The position numbers were made by a program, and so were the translations under genes. From positions 1 to 64,000 of the forward strand of contig NZ_JAFHKK010000002.1 in the NCBI RefSeq assembly GCF_016937535.1: 64,000 nt of DNA. Direction: 5' to 3'. A model generated the notes under the pieces. It saw only the letters and a list, made by a program, of their open reading frames with translations. It was not told the DNA's origin and did no database searches. Shown here one piece after another: positions 15,702 through 41,583 of this stretch. Position 1 is the stretch's first letter. The number at the start of each line of letters is the position of its first letter. This DNA is from Sulfurospirillum tamanense. Its GTDB lineage: Bacteria; Campylobacterota; Campylobacteria; Campylobacterales; Campylobacteraceae.

Positions 15702-16238
15702 ATGGAAGAGGCATTTTTAGCCCACCAAAAAGCCCTTTTGGGGTACGTGTACAAGCGGGTGAAAGACAAGCACATTGCTCAAGACATCGTGCAAGAAGTT
15801 TACCTCAAAGCCCTAGAAAAACAGACAACATTGCGTTCACCTGAACGTTTGGTGGGGTGGTTGTACACAATTGCGGCCCATGCGATTGTAGATTTTTACC
15901 GCGCCAAATCTCCCGCGTTGCCCCTTTGCGATGACCACGCCCAGCCCCAAGTGCGCAAAGAATCCTTGGAAGAATTAAGTGCGTGCGTGGAGCCACTGCT
16001 TGCTTTGTTGCCGAAGCATCATGCCCTTGCTTTGCGCTTGTATGAGCTAGAAGGCCTTTCGCAAAACGCCATTGCAAAGGAGTTAAACCTCTCTTTATCC
16101 GCCACCAAATCCCGCATTTTACGGGGCAGAAAACAACTCAAAGAGCGTTTATTGGCGTGCTGTGAGATTGAATACGTGCGTGGCAAAGTGGCAGGATTTA
16201 CCCCACGAAAGGACTGCGATAGCACGTGTGCGTGCTAA
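15702..16238 (+). CDS. sigZ: ECF sigma factor of the SigZ type
   Basis: RNA polymerase sigma factor of 178 residues with region 2 (about 10-70, including AQDIVQEVYLKAL and GWLYTIAAHAIVDFYRAK) and region 4 (about 105-150, AIAKELNLSLSATKSRILRGR). The C-terminal tail carries cysteines C153, C154, C172, C176 and C178, a feature of SigZ-like factors. Its start lies one base after the deaminase stop, and arsM follows 62 bases later. No anti-sigma factor is adjacent, so the cysteine tail may be the sensor, possibly for arsenite or another thiophilic metal (inference). Confidence 0.85.
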   Translation: MEEAFLAHQKALLGYVYKRVKDKHIAQDIVQEVYLKALEKQTTLRSPERLVGWLYTIAAHAIVDFYRAKSPALPLCDDHAQPQVRKESLEELSACVEPLLALLPKHHALALRLYELEGLSQNAIAKELNLSLSATKSRILRGRKQLKERLLACCEIEYVRGKVAGFTPRKDCDSTCAC

Positions 16239-16300
16239 GGGTTGCATCTTTTTTGCTCTTTTTCCGTCTTTACATGTAAAGCATTCACAAAGGAGAAAAG

Positions 16301-17068
16301 ATGATAACGACCAAAGAGCAACTTTACGAAGAGGTGCGTACGGTGTACGGGGAAATTGCCCAAGGTAAGCGTTGCGGATGTGGGCCAAGTTGTTGCGGGG
16401 ACGCACAAGCGCAAAGTTTGGGGTTGGGTTACAGTGCCACAGCCTTGGCTTCGGTGCCAAAAGAGGCCAACAAGGGGCTAGGATGTGGAAATCCCACGGC
16501 CATAGCAAGCCTCAAAAAAGGCGAAGTAGTGGTGGATTTGGGCAGTGGCGCGGGACTTGACGCGTTTTTGGCGGCGCACCACGTGGGCGAAGAAGGGCGA
16601 GTGATTGGCGTGGACATGACCCCGCAAATGCTCACTAAAGCCCGCGAAAACGCCCGTAAAGGAGCGTATCAACACGTCGAGTTTCGCCTAGGGGAAATCG
16701 AAAACTTGCCCATTGCTAATGGCGTGGTGGATGTGATTATTTCCAACTGCGTCATCAACCTCTCCCCTGACAAACCCCGCGTGTTTAAAGAAGCCTACCG
16801 CGTGCTAAAACCTGGCGGCCGCTTGGCTATCTCAGACATGGTAGCCCTAGCGCCATTGCCTGAGATTTTAGCCCAAGACATCGCCTTGTACACAGGATGT
16901 TTAGCGGGGGCGTCGGTGGTGGGTGAACTGGAAAACCTGCTCACCTCCTGCGGGTTTGAAGCGGTTTGCATTACCCCAAAACACACTACCACCTGCGGCA
17001 CAGGCCAAGAGCGCATTGAAGACTACGTGGTTTCAGCGACCATCGAAGCGGTGAAGCCAAAACCGTAG
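16301..17068 (+). CDS. arsM: Arsenite S-adenosylmethionine methyltransferase
   Basis: Cytoplasmic enzyme of 255 residues that methylates arsenite stepwise using S-adenosylmethionine. The SAM loop is VVDLGSGAGLD (77-87), followed by VIGVDMTPQML. The arsenic-ligand cysteines of the family are visible as C62 (LGCGNP), C150 (SNCVINLSP) and C200 (YTGCLAGA), and an N-terminal cluster C25, C27, C31, C32 is also present. AAAGGAGAAAAG precedes the ATG. Next to sigZ, this forms a likely arsenic or thiophilic-metal response unit. Confidence 0.93.
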   Translation: MITTKEQLYEEVRTVYGEIAQGKRCGCGPSCCGDAQAQSLGLGYSATALASVPKEANKGLGCGNPTAIASLKKGEVVVDLGSGAGLDAFLAAHHVGEEGRVIGVDMTPQMLTKARENARKGAYQHVEFRLGEIENLPIANGVVDVIISNCVINLSPDKPRVFKEAYRVLKPGGRLAISDMVALAPLPEILAQDIALYTGCLAGASVVGELENLLTSCGFEAVCITPKHTTTCGTGQERIEDYVVSATIEAVKPKP

Positions 17069-33782: not shown

Positions 33783-33928
33783 AAAAAACCTCATGGTATA
33801 GTGTGTGAATTTCCTCAAAGACGCAGATTTAGCGCATGGCATTATAGCAAAAGCCAAGCTAATCCAAGAAAGGGCCAAAGGGGTAAAATACCAATAATAA
33901 TCATTTTTATAAATATATACATATTTTT

Positions 33929-33973
33929 AGCAAAACATAAGATTTAATAAAACTCCAAGTTTTGCTTTACTAT
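33929..33973. promoter_or_regulatory. Promoter region of the TRAP operon with an inverted repeat
   Basis: AGCAAAAC (33929-33936) and GTTTTGCT (33959-33966) form a perfect 8-bp inverted repeat with a 22-base spacer. It ends just before a possible -10 box TACTAT (33968-33973). Upstream DNA is very AT-rich. This is a plausible operator for an unknown regulator. Confidence 0.45.
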
Positions 33974-34024
33974 CATGAAAATAACCCCTTTTTTAGGGAC
34001 AATTTATTACTTTAAGGAGTAACC

Positions 34025-35032
34025 ATGAGACCAAGTGGAGTATTACGATTGGTGCTTATGGCATTTTTTTTGATGTCATCAATGCACGCAGCTACATGGA
34101 AGTATGCCATGGGCGAAGGCGAGAGTGATCCTCAGGGTATTTATGCCATGAAGTTCAAAGAAGAGATTGAGAAAAACTCTGACCATAAGATTCAAGTGTA
34201 TCCCGTGGGAACCTTGGGCGAGGAAGCCGACATTCTGGAGCAAGCACAAGCGGGCTTGTTGCAATTTATCGGTCAATCTACAGGCTATATGGGCGCAAGT
34301 ATTCCTGAGATGGATGTTTTTTTCGTACCCTACTTGATGCCAACAGACCCTCAGCAGCTTGATACGTTTTTTCGCAACAGTAAGGCTATCAATGAAATGT
34401 TTCCCGAGATTTTCAGAAAGCACGGACTAGAGCTTTTAGCCATGTTCCCTGAAGGCGAGCAAGTGGTTACTACAATGGAAGAGTTTCGCTCCCCTGAAGA
34501 TTTAAGAGGCAAGAAAATCAGGGTTATGCCAGGTTCTCCGTTACTTATTGAAACGTATAGAGCCTTTGGCGCTTCACCGACGCCTATGAGTTGGGGAGAT
34601 TTGATTGGGGCCCTTAAGACCAACATGGTCGATGGACAAGAAAACCCCACGGTGTGGATTGAAGCGTACGGACTAGATGAACTTACTAAAGTCATGACTT
34701 ACATGGGCCACAATCACTTTACTGCAGCTGCGATGGCAGAATCGAACTTTTTCAATAGCCTTAGCGATGCAGATAAAAAACTCATTAAGAATGCCTCTGA
34801 TGCTGCGTTAAAGCACATCTTAAAAGTGGCACAAGAGTTGGATGCAACAGGGTTGGAAAAAATCAAAAAAAAGAATCCAAGTTATAAAATCGTTCGCCTA
34901 AGCGAAAAAGAGCGTGATGCATTTCGCAAGCGCGTTGTCCAGGTGGAAAAAAGCTTTGTAGAAAAAGCAGGAAAGAGTGGAGAGGGCATTTTAAAACAAA
35001 TGAAAGCTGACCTAAAAGCAGCAATGCAATAG
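34025..35032 (+). CDS. teaA: TRAP transporter substrate-binding protein, TeaA-like (ectoine type)
   Basis: Periplasmic solute receptor of 335 residues with a signal peptide ending near SSMHA (about residue 20). From memory of TeaA of Halomonas elongata, the similarity is close across the whole length: NSDHKIQVYPVGTLGE, FVPYLMPTD, SKAINEMFPEIF, HGLELLAMFPEGE, ETYRAFGASPTPMSWG and VDGQENPTVWIE all have direct counterparts. TeaA binds ectoine and hydroxyectoine with nanomolar-to-micromolar affinity, so that is the predicted ligand. AAGGAG precedes the ATG. It heads a seven-gene block. Substrate rests on remembered similarity, not a search. Confidence 0.82.
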   Translation: MRPSGVLRLVLMAFFLMSSMHAATWKYAMGEGESDPQGIYAMKFKEEIEKNSDHKIQVYPVGTLGEEADILEQAQAGLLQFIGQSTGYMGASIPEMDVFFVPYLMPTDPQQLDTFFRNSKAINEMFPEIFRKHGLELLAMFPEGEQVVTTMEEFRSPEDLRGKKIRVMPGSPLLIETYRAFGASPTPMSWGDLIGALKTNMVDGQENPTVWIEAYGLDELTKVMTYMGHNHFTAAAMAESNFFNSLSDADKKLIKNASDAALKHILKVAQELDATGLEKIKKKNPSYKIVRLSEKERDAFRKRVVQVEKSFVEKAGKSGEGILKQMKADLKAAMQ

Positions 35033-35042
35033 ACCAAACAGT

Positions 35043-35071
35043 GCCACGCATGGCTTTTAGCTGTGGGTGGC
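35043..35071 (+). other. Stem-loop between TRAP receptor and membrane genes
   Basis: GCCAC (35043-35047) pairs with GTGGC (35067-35071), and the stem extends inward with one mismatch. A hairpin here often lowers expression of the membrane genes relative to the abundant binding protein. Confidence 0.4.
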
Positions 35072-35096
35072 GCGATTACTAACCAAGGATGCAGTG

Positions 35097-35666
35097 ATGG
35101 AAGAGAAAAAAGCAACATATTCTTCTATTGTGTTTCGTTTTGTGGATACACAAATTAGCAGATTAGAAGGATTTATGCTGGCCGTAAGTGTGGTATTGAT
35201 GGCTGCCAATACAATAGCCGGCGTCATTAGCCGCTTTGTTTTTAATTATTCGTTTTCATTTACCGATGAACTTAACAGTATTTTTATTATTCTCGTTACC
35301 TTTTCAGGCATTAGTTATGCTGCTCGCCAAGGGCGACACATTCGTATGTCGGCAATTTTCGATACATTCCCTGATTGGTTGCGAAAGGGATTTACTATTA
35401 TCATTTCCGCCATAACAGCGGCAGTGATGTTTTTTTTATGTTACTACGCCGTAGAGTATATCCAGACGCTTATGCAGCGCGGGCGGATTATGCCTGCTCT
35501 TGGAATACCTATTTGGTGGGCTTATGTGTGGGTGCCTGTTGGGTTTTTTGTTACAGGTGTTCAGTATGTGCTGACAGTGGTCAAGAACTTACGCGAAAAA
35601 GACATTTACCTCTCTACGGATATGCTAGACGGGTACGGCGACATTGACGCCGATATTGAAGTATAG
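35097..35666 (+). CDS. teaB: TRAP transporter small permease subunit, TeaB-like
   Basis: DctQ-type protein of 189 residues with four hydrophobic helices (about 24-46, 60-80, 100-122, 143-163). The motifs NYSFSFTDELNSIFI and GISYAARQGRHIRMSAIFD are typical of small TRAP subunits. ATG 35097 is chosen over the upstream TTG/ATG frame because AAGGA lies about eight bases ahead. It sits between receptor and large permease genes. Confidence 0.88.
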   Translation: MEEKKATYSSIVFRFVDTQISRLEGFMLAVSVVLMAANTIAGVISRFVFNYSFSFTDELNSIFIILVTFSGISYAARQGRHIRMSAIFDTFPDWLRKGFTIIISAITAAVMFFLCYYAVEYIQTLMQRGRIMPALGIPIWWAYVWVPVGFFVTGVQYVLTVVKNLREKDIYLSTDMLDGYGDIDADIEV

Positions 35667-35675
35667 GGGGAAGTG

Positions 35676-36965
35676 ATGGCATTGATGATTTTTTCTATCA
35701 TGGTAGTGTTGTTGCTGCTAGGATTTCCCATGATGATTCCCCTGATTGCGGGGGCTACAGTAGGTTTTTGGGAGCTTTTTAACGGTGATTTGAGCCGTAT
35801 GGAGTTCTTGATTCAACAGATGATGGGCGGTATTCGTCCTGCGTCACTCATTGCTGTGCCGATGTTTATCCTCTCTGCAGACATCATGACCCGTGGCCAT
35901 TCGGCAGATCGATTGATTAATTTGGTAATGGCTTTTGTACGGCACATTAAAGGAGGACTTGCGGTCAGTACAGCTTCGGCGTGCACGTTGTTTGGGGCGG
36001 TTTCAGGCTCAACCCAAGCAACCGTAGTTGCTGTTGGTTCACCTTTGCGCCCACGCTTAAAAGCAGGTGGCTACAAAGACTCTTTTATTTTAGCGCTCAT
36101 TGTTAATTCGAGCGACATTGCTTTTTTAATTCCTCCAAGTATTGGGATGATTATTTATGGGGTAGTGTCTAAGACATCCATTCCTGAACTTTTTATCGCA
36201 GGGATTGGGCCAGGATTGTTTATTTTGATGATGTTTTCAATTTACAGCATTATTTATGCGTACAAACACAATATTCCCACTGAGCCTAAAGCAACATGGA
36301 AAGAGCGGGCTATTGCCATCTATGAAGCATTATGGCCTCTTGGGTTTCCTGCCATTATTATCGGTGGTATTTTTACAGGGATTTTTAGCCCTACGGAGGC
36401 TGCGGCGGTGAGCGTGGCGTACGCTCTTTTTTTAGAAATGGTTGTTTTTCGTACACTAAACCTAAAAGGATTGTACGATACAGCCCTTTCGACAGGCCTT
36501 GTAACAGCTGTGGTGTTCATTTTGGTGGCTGCAGGCGCTGCTTTTGCATGGGTACTCTCTTTTGCCCAAGTGCCCCAAGAAATTCTCTCTTCTATTGGCA
36601 TTTATGATATGAGTGCCACTAGTGTGCTGTATGTTATCTCTATCGCCTTTTTTGTAGGGTGTATGTTTGTAGACCCTATTGTGGTGATTTTGGTTTTAGT
36701 TCCTATTTTTGCCCCTGTGGTGCAAAGCGTTGGGCTTGACCCTGTGCTAGTGGGGACAATCATCACACTTCAAGTAGCGATTGGTTCGGCAACACCGCCC
36801 TTTGGATGCGATATTTTTACGGCTATTGCGGTGTTTAAGCGACCATATATTGAGGTAGTGAAAGGGACGCCACCTTTTATTTTTATGTTGTTGAGCATGG
36901 CGGTATTGCTCATCCATTTTCCAGACATCGCCCTCTTTTTACGCGATATCGCTTTTAACAAATAG
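35676..36965 (+). CDS. teaC: TRAP transporter large permease subunit, TeaC-like
   Basis: DctM-type permease of 429 residues with about twelve helices, which drives sodium-coupled uptake. Characteristic segments are AVPMFILSADIMTRG (about 59-73), SACTLFGAVSGSTQATVVAVG, PPSIGMIIYGVVSKTS and the C-terminal QVAIGSATPPFGCDIF. A GTG three bases upstream is an alternative start. The stop is 11 bases before the universal stress gene. Confidence 0.93.
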   Translation: MALMIFSIMVVLLLLGFPMMIPLIAGATVGFWELFNGDLSRMEFLIQQMMGGIRPASLIAVPMFILSADIMTRGHSADRLINLVMAFVRHIKGGLAVSTASACTLFGAVSGSTQATVVAVGSPLRPRLKAGGYKDSFILALIVNSSDIAFLIPPSIGMIIYGVVSKTSIPELFIAGIGPGLFILMMFSIYSIIYAYKHNIPTEPKATWKERAIAIYEALWPLGFPAIIIGGIFTGIFSPTEAAAVSVAYALFLEMVVFRTLNLKGLYDTALSTGLVTAVVFILVAAGAAFAWVLSFAQVPQEILSSIGIYDMSATSVLYVISIAFFVGCMFVDPIVVILVLVPIFAPVVQSVGLDPVLVGTIITLQVAIGSATPPFGCDIFTAIAVFKRPYIEVVKGTPPFIFMLLSMAVLLIHFPDIALFLRDIAFNK

Positions 36966-36976
36966 GGAGGGGAGAC

Positions 36977-37417
36977 ATGTTTCAAAAAATACTAGTTCCC
37001 ATTGATGGTTCAGAAAAATCCATTGAGGCCGTTAAAGTTGCTAGCAATATCGCCAAAACATACGATGGTGAAATGTTAATCCTTTCTGTTTTTCGTCACC
37101 ATAGTCTAATGGAACGCTCTTTTTCTATGGCGGGCGTTTCTAAACGTACAGAAAGCCTAGATGAAACACTCAGTGCATATGCTAAAGAGATAGTAGAAGA
37201 GGGAAAAAATGTAGCCAAAGAGCTTGGCATTACAAAAATTAGAGGTTTTGTGCGAGGCGGTCAGATTGCTAAGCAGATTTTGAGTTTTGCAAAAAAGAGT
37301 GAGGTGGACTTGATTGTTATTGGTTCTCAAGGACAAGGAGATTTAACAGGCTATTTGCTTGGTGGCGTTTCTCATAAAGTAGCGGGCCTTGCTAAATGTC
37401 CCGTCATGGTTATCTAA
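36977..37417 (+). CDS. teaD: Universal stress protein, TeaD-like
   Basis: UspA-fold protein of 146 residues. It has an N-terminal ILVPIDGSEKS and a C-terminal ATP-binding type loop IGSQGQGDLTGYLLGGVSHKV, in which the usual G-S before VS is G-G. In Halomonas the teaABC genes are followed by teaD, an ATP-binding universal stress protein reported to modulate transporter activity; the same order here supports the TeaABCD reading. AGGGAGGGGAG precedes the ATG. Confidence 0.88.
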   Translation: MFQKILVPIDGSEKSIEAVKVASNIAKTYDGEMLILSVFRHHSLMERSFSMAGVSKRTESLDETLSAYAKEIVEEGKNVAKELGITKIRGFVRGGQIAKQILSFAKKSEVDLIVIGSQGQGDLTGYLLGGVSHKVAGLAKCPVMVI

Positions 37418-37499
37418 TGCCTATTAAGATTTCAAAATACTTGGGTGTATTGGCGGTGAACTAGTCAGAATAAAAACATGCCTTCACTGTTTTTTTACG

Positions 37500-37536
37500 A
37501 CTTTACTCACCGACTGATTAAGCCGGTGAGTAAAGT
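37500..37536. other. 13-bp perfect hairpin between transport and catabolic genes
   Basis: ACTTTACTCACCG (37500-37512) and CGGTGAGTAAAGT (37524-37536) with an 11-base loop, in the 158-base gap between teaD and the aminotransferase gene. There is no U-run after it, so it is not a classic terminator. It could be an operator, an mRNA processing or stability element, or an attenuator. Confidence 0.75.
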
Positions 37537-37578
37537 TCTAATCAAACTTGTAACCAATTCTAATCCAAGGAGTCAGTG

Positions 37579-38865
37579 ATGGCGAACAACATGGAGATTT
37601 TCGAGCAGTGGGAATCAAAAATCAGAGCGTATTGTCGTGCGGTACCCACGGTATTTGCCTCGTCAAGTAACGCGACGATGCAAGACGAGAATGGTAAATC
37701 CTACCTCGATTTCTTTGCCGGAGCAGGAGTGCTGAATTTTGGTCACAACAACGCAGCAATGAAGCGTGCTGTGATTGATTTTATTGAAAAAGATGGTGTA
37801 ACACACAGTTTGGATATGTACACATCCGTGAAACGTGATTTTATTGAAACCTTTGTGGAGACGATTCTAAAACCCCGTGGCATGAACCACAAACTACAAT
37901 TTACGGGTCCAACAGGTACCAATGCCGTAGAAGCTTCACTAAAACTCGCCAGACGCATTACAGGGCGCGAGAACATTGTGGCGTTCACTAAAGGTTTCCA
38001 TGGCATGACGTTGGGTGCCCTTACATGTACAGCTAACCAGTACTTTCGAAACGCCGCGGGCGTGAGTTTGGATTATGTGATTCGACAGCCCTTTGGGTGT
38101 GAGAGCCCGTGTAAAGGATGTAGTTTGGGGTGCGGTATGGAGTCGCTAAATGCATTGCGCGCTACCTTTGAAGACCCCGCTTCTGGCGTAAAAGCTCCTG
38201 CGGCATTTTTGGTAGAGACCATTCAAGCCGAAGGCGGTGTGCGTGTGGCGAGTCGCGAGTGGCTCCATGGTGTGCAACAACTGGCCAAAGATTTGGGCGC
38301 ACTGTTTATCATCGATGACATTCAAGTAGGCTCAGGCCGCACGGGCAATTATTTTAGTTTTGATGGCATGGAATTAGACCCGGACATCGTAGTGCTTGCT
38401 AAAGGCATCGGGGGGTTTGGAACACCACTGGCCATGACGCTCAATAAGCCCGAGTGGGATGAGCACTGGAGTCCGGGTGAGCATACGGGCACCTTTCGTG
38501 GTCAAGGCATTTCGTTTGTAGCGGGTAAAGTGGGCATTGAGTATTTTAAAGACGAGGTATTTGGAAAGGATGTTAAAACCAAGGGAGTATTTATGCAGCA
38601 AACCTTGTTGCGCGTGGTGGCCAAACATCCTGAACTTCAACTGCGAGGCAAAGGGATGATTTGGGGTATGGACTTTGGCGTAGGTGAGCCAGTCAAAGCC
38701 ATTGCGACAGCATGTTTTCAAAATGGTCTAATCATTGGGGCGTGTAGTGGTAAAGGCGAGGTGTTAAAATTTATCCCCCCGCTTACGATTCCCCAAGAAG
38801 AACTGGAGCGTGGATTGAAAATTTTTGAAGAGGCATGTGATAAAATCCTAGGAGTAGCCCAATGA
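37579..38865 (+). CDS. doeD: Class III aminotransferase, diaminobutyrate/DoeD-like
   Basis: PLP enzyme of 428 residues. The cofactor-binding DDIQVGSGRTG (about 253-263) and the lysine in VLAKGIGGFGTPLAMTL (about 275) are present. The HTGTFRGQG segment is close to EctB/DoeD diaminobutyrate transaminases. In ectoine breakdown DoeD converts L-2,4-diaminobutyrate to aspartate semialdehyde. A cysteine cluster, C174, C178, C181 and C185 (CESPCKGCSLGC), is inserted where related enzymes have a loop. ATG 37579 follows AAGGAG by six bases. The exact substrate is inferred from context. Confidence 0.75.
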   Translation: MANNMEIFEQWESKIRAYCRAVPTVFASSSNATMQDENGKSYLDFFAGAGVLNFGHNNAAMKRAVIDFIEKDGVTHSLDMYTSVKRDFIETFVETILKPRGMNHKLQFTGPTGTNAVEASLKLARRITGRENIVAFTKGFHGMTLGALTCTANQYFRNAAGVSLDYVIRQPFGCESPCKGCSLGCGMESLNALRATFEDPASGVKAPAAFLVETIQAEGGVRVASREWLHGVQQLAKDLGALFIIDDIQVGSGRTGNYFSFDGMELDPDIVVLAKGIGGFGTPLAMTLNKPEWDEHWSPGEHTGTFRGQGISFVAGKVGIEYFKDEVFGKDVKTKGVFMQQTLLRVVAKHPELQLRGKGMIWGMDFGVGEPVKAIATACFQNGLIIGACSGKGEVLKFIPPLTIPQEELERGLKIFEEACDKILGVAQ

Positions 38866-40142
38866 GAGAACGCGATGATATGACTTTCCCTTTTGAGGAG
38901 TACAAGCGTCGAGTTGATGAGTTGCGTGGGCGCATGATGGAACGCTTGTTGGACGTGGTAATTGTCACAGACCCCGAAAATTTATACTATCTTACGGAAT
39001 ACAAAACCACAGGCTACTCTTTTTTCCAAGCCCTTGTGGTGCCACTTGAGGGCGAGCCTTATATGGTTACGCGTAAGCTTGAAGCCTCTAATGTCATCGC
39101 GCGTACATGGGTGGAGATTACCCGTTCATACTCGGATACAGAAGATGCCATTCAAATGCTAGTTACTAGCCTTAGGGAGATGGGTTTGGCCAAAAAACGC
39201 ATTGGGTATGAGCGTAACAGTTACTTTTTGCCTGCGTACCAACAAGACTCTTTGCTTCATACCCTTACAGGCGGCCAATTGTGTGATTGCTTTGGGATTG
39301 TGGAACAAGGTAGGATTATCAAATCTTCCTATGAGATTGAAGTGATGCGCCGTTCTGCCAAGGCAACCCAAGCGGGGATGCGCGCAGGAATCGCGGCAGC
39401 CAAAGCGGGCGTGACGGAAAATGAAATTGGAGCAGAAATCTCTTCGGCCATGTTTAAAGCTGGCGGTGAGCCTCCTGCGGTGATGCCTTACGTAACTTCA
39501 GGTCCAAGAACGATGATTGGCCATGCTACATGGGAGGGGCGGATTGTGCGGCCTGGCGAACACGTATTTCTAGAAGTGGGTGGGTGTTATCGCCAGTATC
39601 ATACGGCTATGATGCGCACGGTAGTGTTGGGCGAATTAACCGACAACATGGCATACGCGGAGGAGCGGATGAAATTGGCCCTTAAAAGCGCCAAAGCCTT
39701 GATTCGACCAGGGATTAGTGTGTCGGATTTGGATAATTTAATTCGCAACATCATCACCGTGGACGAAGAGCGTGGGATTTTGATTACCCGCTCGGGGTAC
39801 TCCATAGGGATTGCCTTTCCTCCTAGTTGGGACGAGGGGTATATTTTGAGCCTAGCCCATGGCAACCCTACGGTATTGCGCGAGGGGATGACCTTCCATA
39901 TCATCCCGTGGACATGGGGAGTGGACGGGGATAAGACGTGCGGCATTTCAGACACCATTCGTGTTACAGCAACGGGATGCGAATCCTTTTTTGAGCTGGA
40001 TGAGGATTTTGTGGTGAAGAAAGAAGAGGGCAAGGTTGTGCTTCCAGAAAAAAAAGAAGTGTTGCCCTGCGACGAGCCACCGTGCGAGATAGAGGAGCGC
40101 AAAAGAGAAGCAAAAAAAGCCAATAAAAAAGGATCAAAATGA
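38862..40142 (+). CDS. doeA: M24-family hydrolase, ectoine hydrolase (DoeA)-like
   Basis: Creatinase/prolidase-fold protein of 426 residues: an N-terminal domain (about 1-160) with VIVTDPENLYYLT and VVPLEGEP, and a C-terminal pita-bread domain (about 165-385). The segments YHTAMMRTVVLGE, GYSIGIAFPPSWDEGYILSL and REGMTFHIIPWTW resemble DoeA/EutD ectoine hydrolases, which open the ectoine ring. The last 35 residues are a charged lysine/glutamate tail with an internal CDEPPCE, which I do not know from the family. The start overlaps the doeD stop (ATGA). A general Xaa-Pro peptidase is the alternative. Confidence 0.72.
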   Translation: MRERDDMTFPFEEYKRRVDELRGRMMERLLDVVIVTDPENLYYLTEYKTTGYSFFQALVVPLEGEPYMVTRKLEASNVIARTWVEITRSYSDTEDAIQMLVTSLREMGLAKKRIGYERNSYFLPAYQQDSLLHTLTGGQLCDCFGIVEQGRIIKSSYEIEVMRRSAKATQAGMRAGIAAAKAGVTENEIGAEISSAMFKAGGEPPAVMPYVTSGPRTMIGHATWEGRIVRPGEHVFLEVGGCYRQYHTAMMRTVVLGELTDNMAYAEERMKLALKSAKALIRPGISVSDLDNLIRNIITVDEERGILITRSGYSIGIAFPPSWDEGYILSLAHGNPTVLREGMTFHIIPWTWGVDGDKTCGISDTIRVTATGCESFFELDEDFVVKKEEGKVVLPEKKEVLPCDEPPCEIEERKREAKKANKKGSK

Positions 40143-41521
40143 GTCAAGCACTAACAGCACGCAATCCTTATACCGAAGAAATTATTTATGAAAAACCCTT
40201 AGAGAGCGAAGAAACAATCAATGAAAAACTAGGCAAGGCACAAGAAGTCTACCGCGCGGTGTGGAAAAAAACCACGTACGAAGAACGAGCAGTTTACCTT
40301 AATAAAGTCGCTAAAGTTTTGCGCGATGAGGTGGACTATTTTGCCATGCCAATGGTGGAAGAGATGGGCAAGCCCATCAAAGAAGCCAGAGGCGAGGTGT
40401 TGAAATCCGCGTGGTGTGCCGAGCATTACGCCGAACATGCAGGGGCGTATCTGGCAACCGAACACATCGCATCAGATGCGACAAAAAGCTACGTACAGTA
40501 TCTGCCTTTGGGGACAATTCTTGGGGTGTTGCCGTGGAATGCGCCATTTTGGCTAGCCTTTCGCTTCTGTGCCCCCGCACTTATGGCGGGCAATACGTGT
40601 GTGATGAAGCACGATTCGCACGTGCCAAAATGCGCCGAAGTAATTGAGCAAGCGTTTATTAAAGCAGGTGTTCCAGAGGGTGTATTTCAAAATCTAGCCA
40701 TTAATTCAAGCTTGATTGAACCTGTGGTTAAACACGACGCTATCAAGGCAGTTTCCTTTACAGGTTCAGATATGGCAGGCTCAAAGATTGCTGCCCTTGC
40801 TGCATCCTTAATTAAACCGTGTGTACTAGAACTAGGCGGGTCAGACCCTAGTATCGTGTTGGCTGATGCAAACCTTGAAGAAGCGGCGGATGTGATTTGC
40901 CTTTCGCGCATCATCAACGCGGGCCAATCGTGCATCGCAGCCAAGCGGATTATCGTAGAAGAAGCCGTGTATGAGCCGATGATTGAGCTCTTAAAAACGC
41001 GGCTTGCTCAGTTGAAAATGGGTAATCCCAAAGAAGAGAGCACGGACATAGGCCCTATTGCACGCGAAGATTTGCGCGACGAACTACACAGGCAAGTGGA
41101 AGCGTCTGTAAAGGCGGGTGCAAGGCTGTTGCTTGGCGGTGAAATCCCTGAGGAAAAAGGGTATTTTTACCCTGTGACGCTGTTGGTTGATGTGACCTCA
41201 GAAATGGTGGCAAGTTGTGAAGAGACCTTTGGCCCCATCGCGGTGGTGATGAAGGCTAAAGACGCCAAAGATGCCCTAGGCATCGCCAATAACACCCCTT
41301 ATGGCTTGGGTGCGAGCGTGTGGACAGAGGGCGCTAAAGGCGAAGCCATAGCTAGAGAAATCGAGGCGGGCCAAGTTTCGGTGAATGGGATTGTCAAAAC
41401 CGACCCACGCCTGCCTAGTGGGGGCGTAAAGCGTTCAGGCTACGGGAGAGAGCTTGGACCACATGGCATTAAAATGTTTGTGAGTGCCCAACAAGTGTGG
41501 GTAGGCCCCAAAAAAGCTTAG
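40139..41521 (+). CDS. doeC: NAD(P)-dependent semialdehyde dehydrogenase, DoeC/GabD-like
   Basis: Aldehyde dehydrogenase of 460 residues. The catalytic glutamate region LELGGSDPSIVL (about 232-243), the catalytic cysteine in NAGQSCIAAKRII (about 260-272) and the NPKEESTDIGPIA block are as in succinate-semialdehyde dehydrogenases. In ectoine catabolism DoeC oxidises aspartate semialdehyde to aspartate, which fits this place after DoeD and DoeA. The start overlaps the doeA stop by four bases, and a weak terminator follows. Without a biochemical test, succinate semialdehyde remains possible. Confidence 0.78.
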   Translation: MSQALTARNPYTEEIIYEKPLESEETINEKLGKAQEVYRAVWKKTTYEERAVYLNKVAKVLRDEVDYFAMPMVEEMGKPIKEARGEVLKSAWCAEHYAEHAGAYLATEHIASDATKSYVQYLPLGTILGVLPWNAPFWLAFRFCAPALMAGNTCVMKHDSHVPKCAEVIEQAFIKAGVPEGVFQNLAINSSLIEPVVKHDAIKAVSFTGSDMAGSKIAALAASLIKPCVLELGGSDPSIVLADANLEEAADVICLSRIINAGQSCIAAKRIIVEEAVYEPMIELLKTRLAQLKMGNPKEESTDIGPIAREDLRDELHRQVEASVKAGARLLLGGEIPEEKGYFYPVTLLVDVTSEMVASCEETFGPIAVVMKAKDAKDALGIANNTPYGLGASVWTEGAKGEAIAREIEAGQVSVNGIVKTDPRLPSGGVKRSGYGRELGPHGIKMFVSAQQVWVGPKKA

Positions 41522-41540: not shown

Positions 41541-41573
41541 TGACCAGTTTGTTATAATGCGACAAACTGGCCA
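41541..41573 (+). promoter_or_regulatory. lpxB promoter: -10 box inside an inverted repeat
   Basis: TGACCAGTTTGT (41541-41552) and ACAAACTGGCCA (41562-41573) form a 12-bp inverted repeat with one mismatch. The 9-base spacer TATAATGCG is itself a consensus -10 box. A protein bound here would cover the promoter completely; alternatively the repeat may form a hairpin at the 5' end of the message. Confidence 0.6.
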
Positions 41574-41583
41574 AAGGATTTTT

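Follow-up and report, generated by a model that had tools for sequence, protein, structure and literature searches.

A probable ectoine import and degradation locus without a doeB gene in Sulfurospirillum tamanense

Ectoine is a protective molecule against salt stress. We analyzed a 64,000-nucleotide stretch of the Sulfurospirillum tamanense genome (assembly GCF_016937535.1, contig NZ_JAFHKK010000002.1, positions 1 to 64,000; hereafter, the window), in which seven genes at positions 34025-41521 of the + strand form a putative ectoine locus. We conclude, with good confidence, that the locus probably serves for ectoine import and degradation, that is, recapture or scavenging followed by conversion to aspartate, with the deacetylase encoded elsewhere. 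This conclusion is drawn from the gene content, family membership, pocket residues, synteny and absence of a recognisable DoeB, all of which were read from the sequence.

The seven open reading frames (ORFs) contain no stops and are arranged in the order teaA-teaB-teaC-teaD and then doeD-doeA-doeC. Their number, order and extent were correctly given in an earlier note on this DNA. In the same order, the Pfam families are DctP, DctQ, DctM, Usp, class-III aminotransferase, M24 peptidase with a creatinase N-domain, and aldehyde dehydrogenase. The intergenic gaps are 34 bases (teaA-teaB), 6 bases (teaB-teaC), 11 bases (teaC-teaD) and 158 bases (teaD-doeD), and the doeD/doeA and doeA/doeC pairs each overlap by 4 bases. 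Thus, the spacing divides the genes into two blocks, tea and doe, of which the latter is translationally coupled.

The teaA gene (34025..35032) encodes a predicted ectoine-binding periplasmic receptor of the TeaA/UehA type, belonging to the tripartite ATP-independent periplasmic (TRAP) transporters. Against the PDB, the receptor matched 3gyy, 3fxb (UehA) and 2vpn (TeaA) with 338-342 bits (E about 1e-100), and the next chain scored 142. The sialic-acid receptor SiaP and DctP scored about 94 and about 82 bits, respectively. On these scores, we rejected a C4-dicarboxylate or sialic-acid transporter; the protein groups with the ectoine receptors instead. In the published structure of TeaA, the ectoine contacts are E9, F66, R144, W167, N184, W188 and F209. 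By alignment, these map to E31, Y88, R166, W190, N207, W211 and F232 of the window's receptor, so that six of the seven positions are identical and F66 is replaced by Tyr. Eight other campylobacterotal receptors retain these positions as well, with Y or F at position 66. In 4pfi, the next PDB chain after the ectoine receptors, both Trp residues and the aromatic residue at 66 are absent. TRAP receptors are diverse and tea genes are found without doe genes in relatives, as would be expected if the system imported another solute (C4-dicarboxylate, sialic acid or isethionate) and adjoined the doe genes by accident. We regard this as highly improbable, given the wide gap between the receptor's scores with ectoine receptors (338-342 bits) and with any others (142 at most), a pocket in which all seven residues are identical or conservatively substituted, and tea genes that also adjoin doe genes in three of the four f6 genomes of this order (see below). 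The proposal of an ectoine receptor and transporter with teaD was therefore sound: TeaA/UehA is by far the closest type and the aromatic pocket is kept.

The small TRAP permease gene teaB (DctQ; 35067..35666; PF04290, 98 bits) is 75% identical in product to its same-genus homologue. Since the homologue aligns from residue 14, the start is probably the ATG at 35097. The large permease gene teaC (DctM; 35673..36965) scored above cut-off with PF06808 and TIGR00786, and shows 81-83% identity to the teaC genes that adjoin doe genes in other Campylobacterota. Directly 3' of teaC, as in the same-genus genome G428, lies teaD (36977..37417; PF00582), the universal stress protein gene of the tea operon.

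The doeD product (37576..38865, with the start probably at the ATG at 37579) scored 584 bits with NF006733, the diaminobutyrate transaminase subfamily (cut-off 438). With the EctB family TIGR02407, it scored 509, under the cut-off of 552, whereas the true EctB of this genome scored 650. In the tree, it is placed with the DoeD of the f6 genomes. The doeA gene (38862..40142) encodes an ectoine hydrolase of the creatinase/M24 fold and of the DoeA_2 type: it scored 738 bits with NF038259 (ectoine_DoeA_2), above the curated cut-off of 575, and 194.5 bits with classic DoeA/EutD (TIGR02993), under the cut-off of 613. Its core is 72-77% identical to 22 DoeA_2 homologues, and its predicted fold matches best to DoeA of Halomonas elongata. 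In E. coli, a methanotroph DoeA of this type converted ectoine into N-alpha-acetyl-diaminobutyrate (N-alpha-acetyl-DAB) (PMC7192451). The aspartate-semialdehyde dehydrogenase gene doeC (40139..41521) was assigned by PF00171 (434 bits) and by its tree, and is 56-67% identical to doeC of doeBDAC-type operons. Thus, the identities earlier given to teaD, doeD, doeA and doeC were confirmed. The order doeD-doeA-doeC was the same in each of the 80 related loci retrieved, most of them from halophilic or marine Gammaproteobacteria and some from Actinomycetota. Since the order recurs in every one of them, a chance arrangement is excluded.

The operon holds three of the four known ectoine breakdown enzymes; the gene of the deacetylase DoeB is absent. 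Several observations here weigh against our conclusion. In the whole genome (a draft of 63 contigs, completeness 100), the best match to DoeB2 scored 117-126 bits (cut-off 550) and the best match to EutE 88 bits (cut-off 403). No EnuR or AsnC regulator was found among the ORFs beside the operon, the rest of the genome being outside that search. Furthermore, the nearest relative of DoeB2, an M20D amidohydrolase (contig C21, L099:8274-9587) encoded two genes from aspartase, has counterparts that score similarly in many doe-less members of the family, and hence is not dedicated to ectoine. The earlier note had taken the three enzymes as successive steps of the breakdown to aspartate. This did not hold: for the second step, the operon carries no deacetylase gene, and nowhere in the genome did a gene score as DoeB.

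The genome encodes four M20 proteins, namely DapE, a carboxypeptidase-like protein, an allantoate-amidohydrolase-like protein and the M20D amidohydrolase. As DoeB candidates, we rejected the M20 protein at C31, which is DapE (above cut-off), the carboxypeptidase-like M20 protein at C14, the hydantoinase-type protein at C21, which is allantoate-amidohydrolase-like, and the AstE-type protein at C1, whose gene lies near a RimK-like gene. The M20D amidohydrolase on C21 is the likeliest candidate for the deacetylation. ArgJ is also encoded in the genome, and a side reaction of ArgJ on N-alpha-acetyl-DAB is conceivable, as a guess. Putative eutE-less clusters of Bacillota carry an abgB amidohydrolase (PMC13188858); therefore, a similar substitute is plausible here. 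We propose only tentatively, and with low confidence, that ectoine degradation may work without DoeB, either through a non-orthologous deacetylase or with the acetyl group kept until N-acetylaspartate.

The second of these routes can be specified as a bypass in which DoeD transaminates N-alpha-acetyl-DAB, DoeC makes N-acetylaspartate and the aspartoacylase-family enzyme at C1 cleaves it. DoeB is absent and an AstE/aspartoacylase-type protein is encoded, as such a bypass would require. However, the AstE-type gene sits with the RimK-like gene both here and in G310, which suggests an unrelated peptide-modifying role, and DoeD closely resembles enzymes whose presumed substrate is free diaminobutyrate. 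We consider this bypass rather improbable. It is also unlikely, in our judgment, that the locus is a broken remnant whose pathway became non-functional when doeB was lost. In favour of such a loss, one can point to doeB2, which immediately precedes doeD in 67 of the 77 testable relatives and is missing here, and to G428, a relative without any DoeA. However, none of the three enzymes is broken, their motifs are conserved and their genes overlap by 4 bases, and 10 of the 77 relatives likewise possess no adjacent doeB2.

The genome of the window also carries an ectA-ectB-ectC-ask operon (contig C17, L098:7571-11235), in which ask encodes aspartate kinase. Therefore, the organism makes ectoine. 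The earlier note had expected carbon, nitrogen or osmoprotection to be supplied from algal and bacterial ectoines; since the cell has its own synthesis, taking up algal or foreign ectoine is just one of the possible uses of the locus. Of 397 sampled Campylobacterota genomes, 29 have ectC, 8 have TeaA and 5 have DoeA, and neither TeaA nor DoeA was found outside the 29. The hypergeometric probabilities of this overlap, not corrected for relatedness, are 3e-10 (TeaA) and 1.5e-6 (DoeA). Thus, recapture and turnover are the favoured role, at least in part.

A narrower form of our explanation confines the locus to recovery and pool control: teaABC would recapture self-made ectoine, doeDAC would trim the pool after an osmotic downshift, and foreign ectoine would be no meaningful food. 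The presence of ectABC-ask in the same genome and the restriction of TeaA and DoeA to ectC-positive genomes speak for it, as do four sampled genomes with TeaA and without DoeA (G207, G256, G299 and G393) and a methanotroph that uses the same enzymes for turnover and not for growth (PMC7192451). However, producers such as Vibrio diabolicus may also eat ectoine (PMC13188858), and the transporter and catabolic genes are adjacent in the window. We give this narrower form somewhat less than an even chance. Separately, a second TeaA type was seen in ectC-positive genomes without DoeA (L144, L145; G207, G256); it is 52-53% identical to the window's TeaA and, by eye, more Halomonas-like.

From these data, we infer the ligand, the direction of flux, the deacetylating enzyme and the physiological role as follows. 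TeaA would bind ectoine in the periplasm, TeaB/TeaC would import it on an ion gradient, and TeaD may modulate the transporter. DoeA would open the ectoine ring to N-alpha-acetyl-diaminobutyrate, and an enzyme encoded outside the locus, probably a distant or unrelated hydrolase, would remove the acetyl group. DoeD would then convert diaminobutyrate to aspartate semialdehyde by transamination, and DoeC would oxidize the latter to aspartate, which aspartase could convert into fumarate. Since the cell also makes ectoine, leaked ectoine would be recaptured, and surplus or foreign ectoine would be recycled or eaten.

In G428, the same site reads surE-teaABCD-lpxB; there are no doe genes at the site and no DoeA anywhere in the genome. 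The segment 37418..41544 (+ strand) is missing, and teaD is directly followed by the lpxB promoter and lpxB. Thus, doeDAC can be separated, as a cassette, from the transporter resident beside it, and the difference may reflect a gain here or a loss in G428. The right edge of the segment is marked by a predicted lpxB promoter element (41545..41578, + strand; GTTTGTTATAATGC...CCAAAGGAT) conserved in G428 beside teaD. The guanine-plus-cytosine fraction is 0.48-0.50 in doeDAC and 0.40-0.45 in the tea genes. Contamination was ruled out: the contig that holds the operon is 188 kb long, and the genes on either side are conserved and also occur in G428.

The DoeD and DoeC trees place the window's proteins in a clade with those of the f6 genomes (G122, G273, G310 and G395, four further members of the order), with supports of 100/98 and 99/96. 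A grouping with Halothiobacillaceae/Guyparkeria alone was rejected (p 0.008 for DoeD and 0.014 for DoeC). In the DoeA_2 tree, however, the window's DoeA is sister to Halothiobacillaceae/Guyparkeria (98). The f6 genomes, probably Arcobacteraceae, possess doeD-doeC-doeA and doeB2, and three of them carry teaABCD alongside. Their DoeA is nearer the classic type. Given this DoeA, the doeB2 and the shared DoeD/DoeC clade, one cassette appears to have been reshaped in two ways: the window would have kept doeA_2 and lost doeB, and f6 would have replaced doeA and kept doeB2. On this picture, the transporter would be the older resident of the site, and the ultimate relatives of the doeDAC cassette would be the doeBDAC operons of sulfur-oxidising Gammaproteobacteria.

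Two f6 genomes contain genes for a proline-racemase-like protein and a zinc alcohol dehydrogenase between teaD and doeB2 (L093:2832-5019; L096:2634-4819), possibly hydroxyectoine or side-pathway enzymes. Beside doeD, some loci also carry a divergently oriented aspartase gene and asparaginase-like gene (L094:3118-5060; L095:13217-15118; L096:13438-15478), which fits aspartate as the pathway product.

Non-coding elements were also found on the + strand. The region 5' of teaA (33879..34024) is strikingly conserved in the same-genus relative, as seen in the side-by-side sequences, which include AAAACTYCAAGTTTTGCTT; it is probably the control region of teaA. A palindromic AAAACTYCAAGTTTT lies inside it and is a possible operator. 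A sigma-70 scan gave fewer sites than the shuffles and was not used. Between teaD and doeD, a hairpin (37499..37538) has perfect 13-base arms (ACTTTACTCACCG/CGGTGAGTAAAGT) and an RNA fold z of -4.6; it is possibly a processing or attenuation element. No second copy of the hairpin pattern was found in the window, in a weak test whose pattern spacer was one base short. Apart from the locus, positions 15702-17068 encode an ECF-type (extracytoplasmic function) sigma factor and then a methyltransferase whose Cys-rich N-terminus resembles arsenite methyltransferase.

The assignment of the host to the Campylobacterota agrees with ClpX and FabZ, which are nearest to H. pylori and C. jejuni structures, and with the cheV-cheA-cheW order. 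Ectoine synthesis has been published for Arcobacter and other Campylobacterota (PMC5495459, PMC10336517, PMC12174138). The open papers that we searched describe neither uptake nor catabolism of ectoine in this phylum, and a 2026 survey of the catabolic pathway does not list it (PMC13188858). As far as the open literature on uptake and catabolism goes, this bears out the earlier note, which knew of no description of ectoine use there. The parts of the locus are known; what is unusual is their occurrence in Campylobacterota, the missing second enzyme and a host that also makes ectoine. Uptake and catabolism are thereby extended to a phylum for which the literature found has synthesis only. The same-genus pair with and without doeDAC at one site offers a natural case of catabolism gain (or loss) at an osmolyte transporter locus, and, with DoeB missing, the second step becomes open to direct testing. 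The locus also cautions that adjacent genes alone do not prove a complete pathway.

Among known systems, TeaABC-TeaD of Halomonas elongata and UehABC of Ruegeria pomeroyi have in common with the window the receptor family, the ectoine pocket, the order teaA-B-C-D and the association with ectoine metabolism. However, tea is unlinked from doe in H. elongata and directly 5' of doeDAC here, and F66 of TeaA is Tyr in the window's receptor. The eutDE-atf-ssd clusters (EnuR-controlled; Alphaproteobacteria and Vibrio) perform the same chemistry with a TRAP or ATP-binding cassette (ABC) ectoine importer, and additionally possess an EutE-type deacetylase, regulators and eutABC for hydroxyectoine, which the window's cluster does not. 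The eutE-less clusters of Bacillota (PMC13188858) likewise combine an ectoine hydrolase and a transaminase without EutE, with an Abg-type amidohydrolase as a possible substitute; this gene is inside the cluster in Bacillota, whereas the window's only candidate is unlinked. The f6 clusters come from the same taxonomic order, share the DoeD/DoeC clade and, in three of four, the tea transporter type, but have doeB2, a different gene order and a DoeA only 27-29% identical to the window's. The doeBDAC clusters of Methylotuvimicrobium alcaliphilum and relatives (PMC7192451) have DoeA_2, DoeD and DoeC in D-A-C order as in the window, and, as here, their hosts make ectoine and the cluster is without EnuR or AsnC. 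They carry doeB (DoeB2), whereas the window has no doeB and an added TRAP transporter upstream; teaA is absent from the examined flanks of all 80 doeBDAC-related loci and present in the window.

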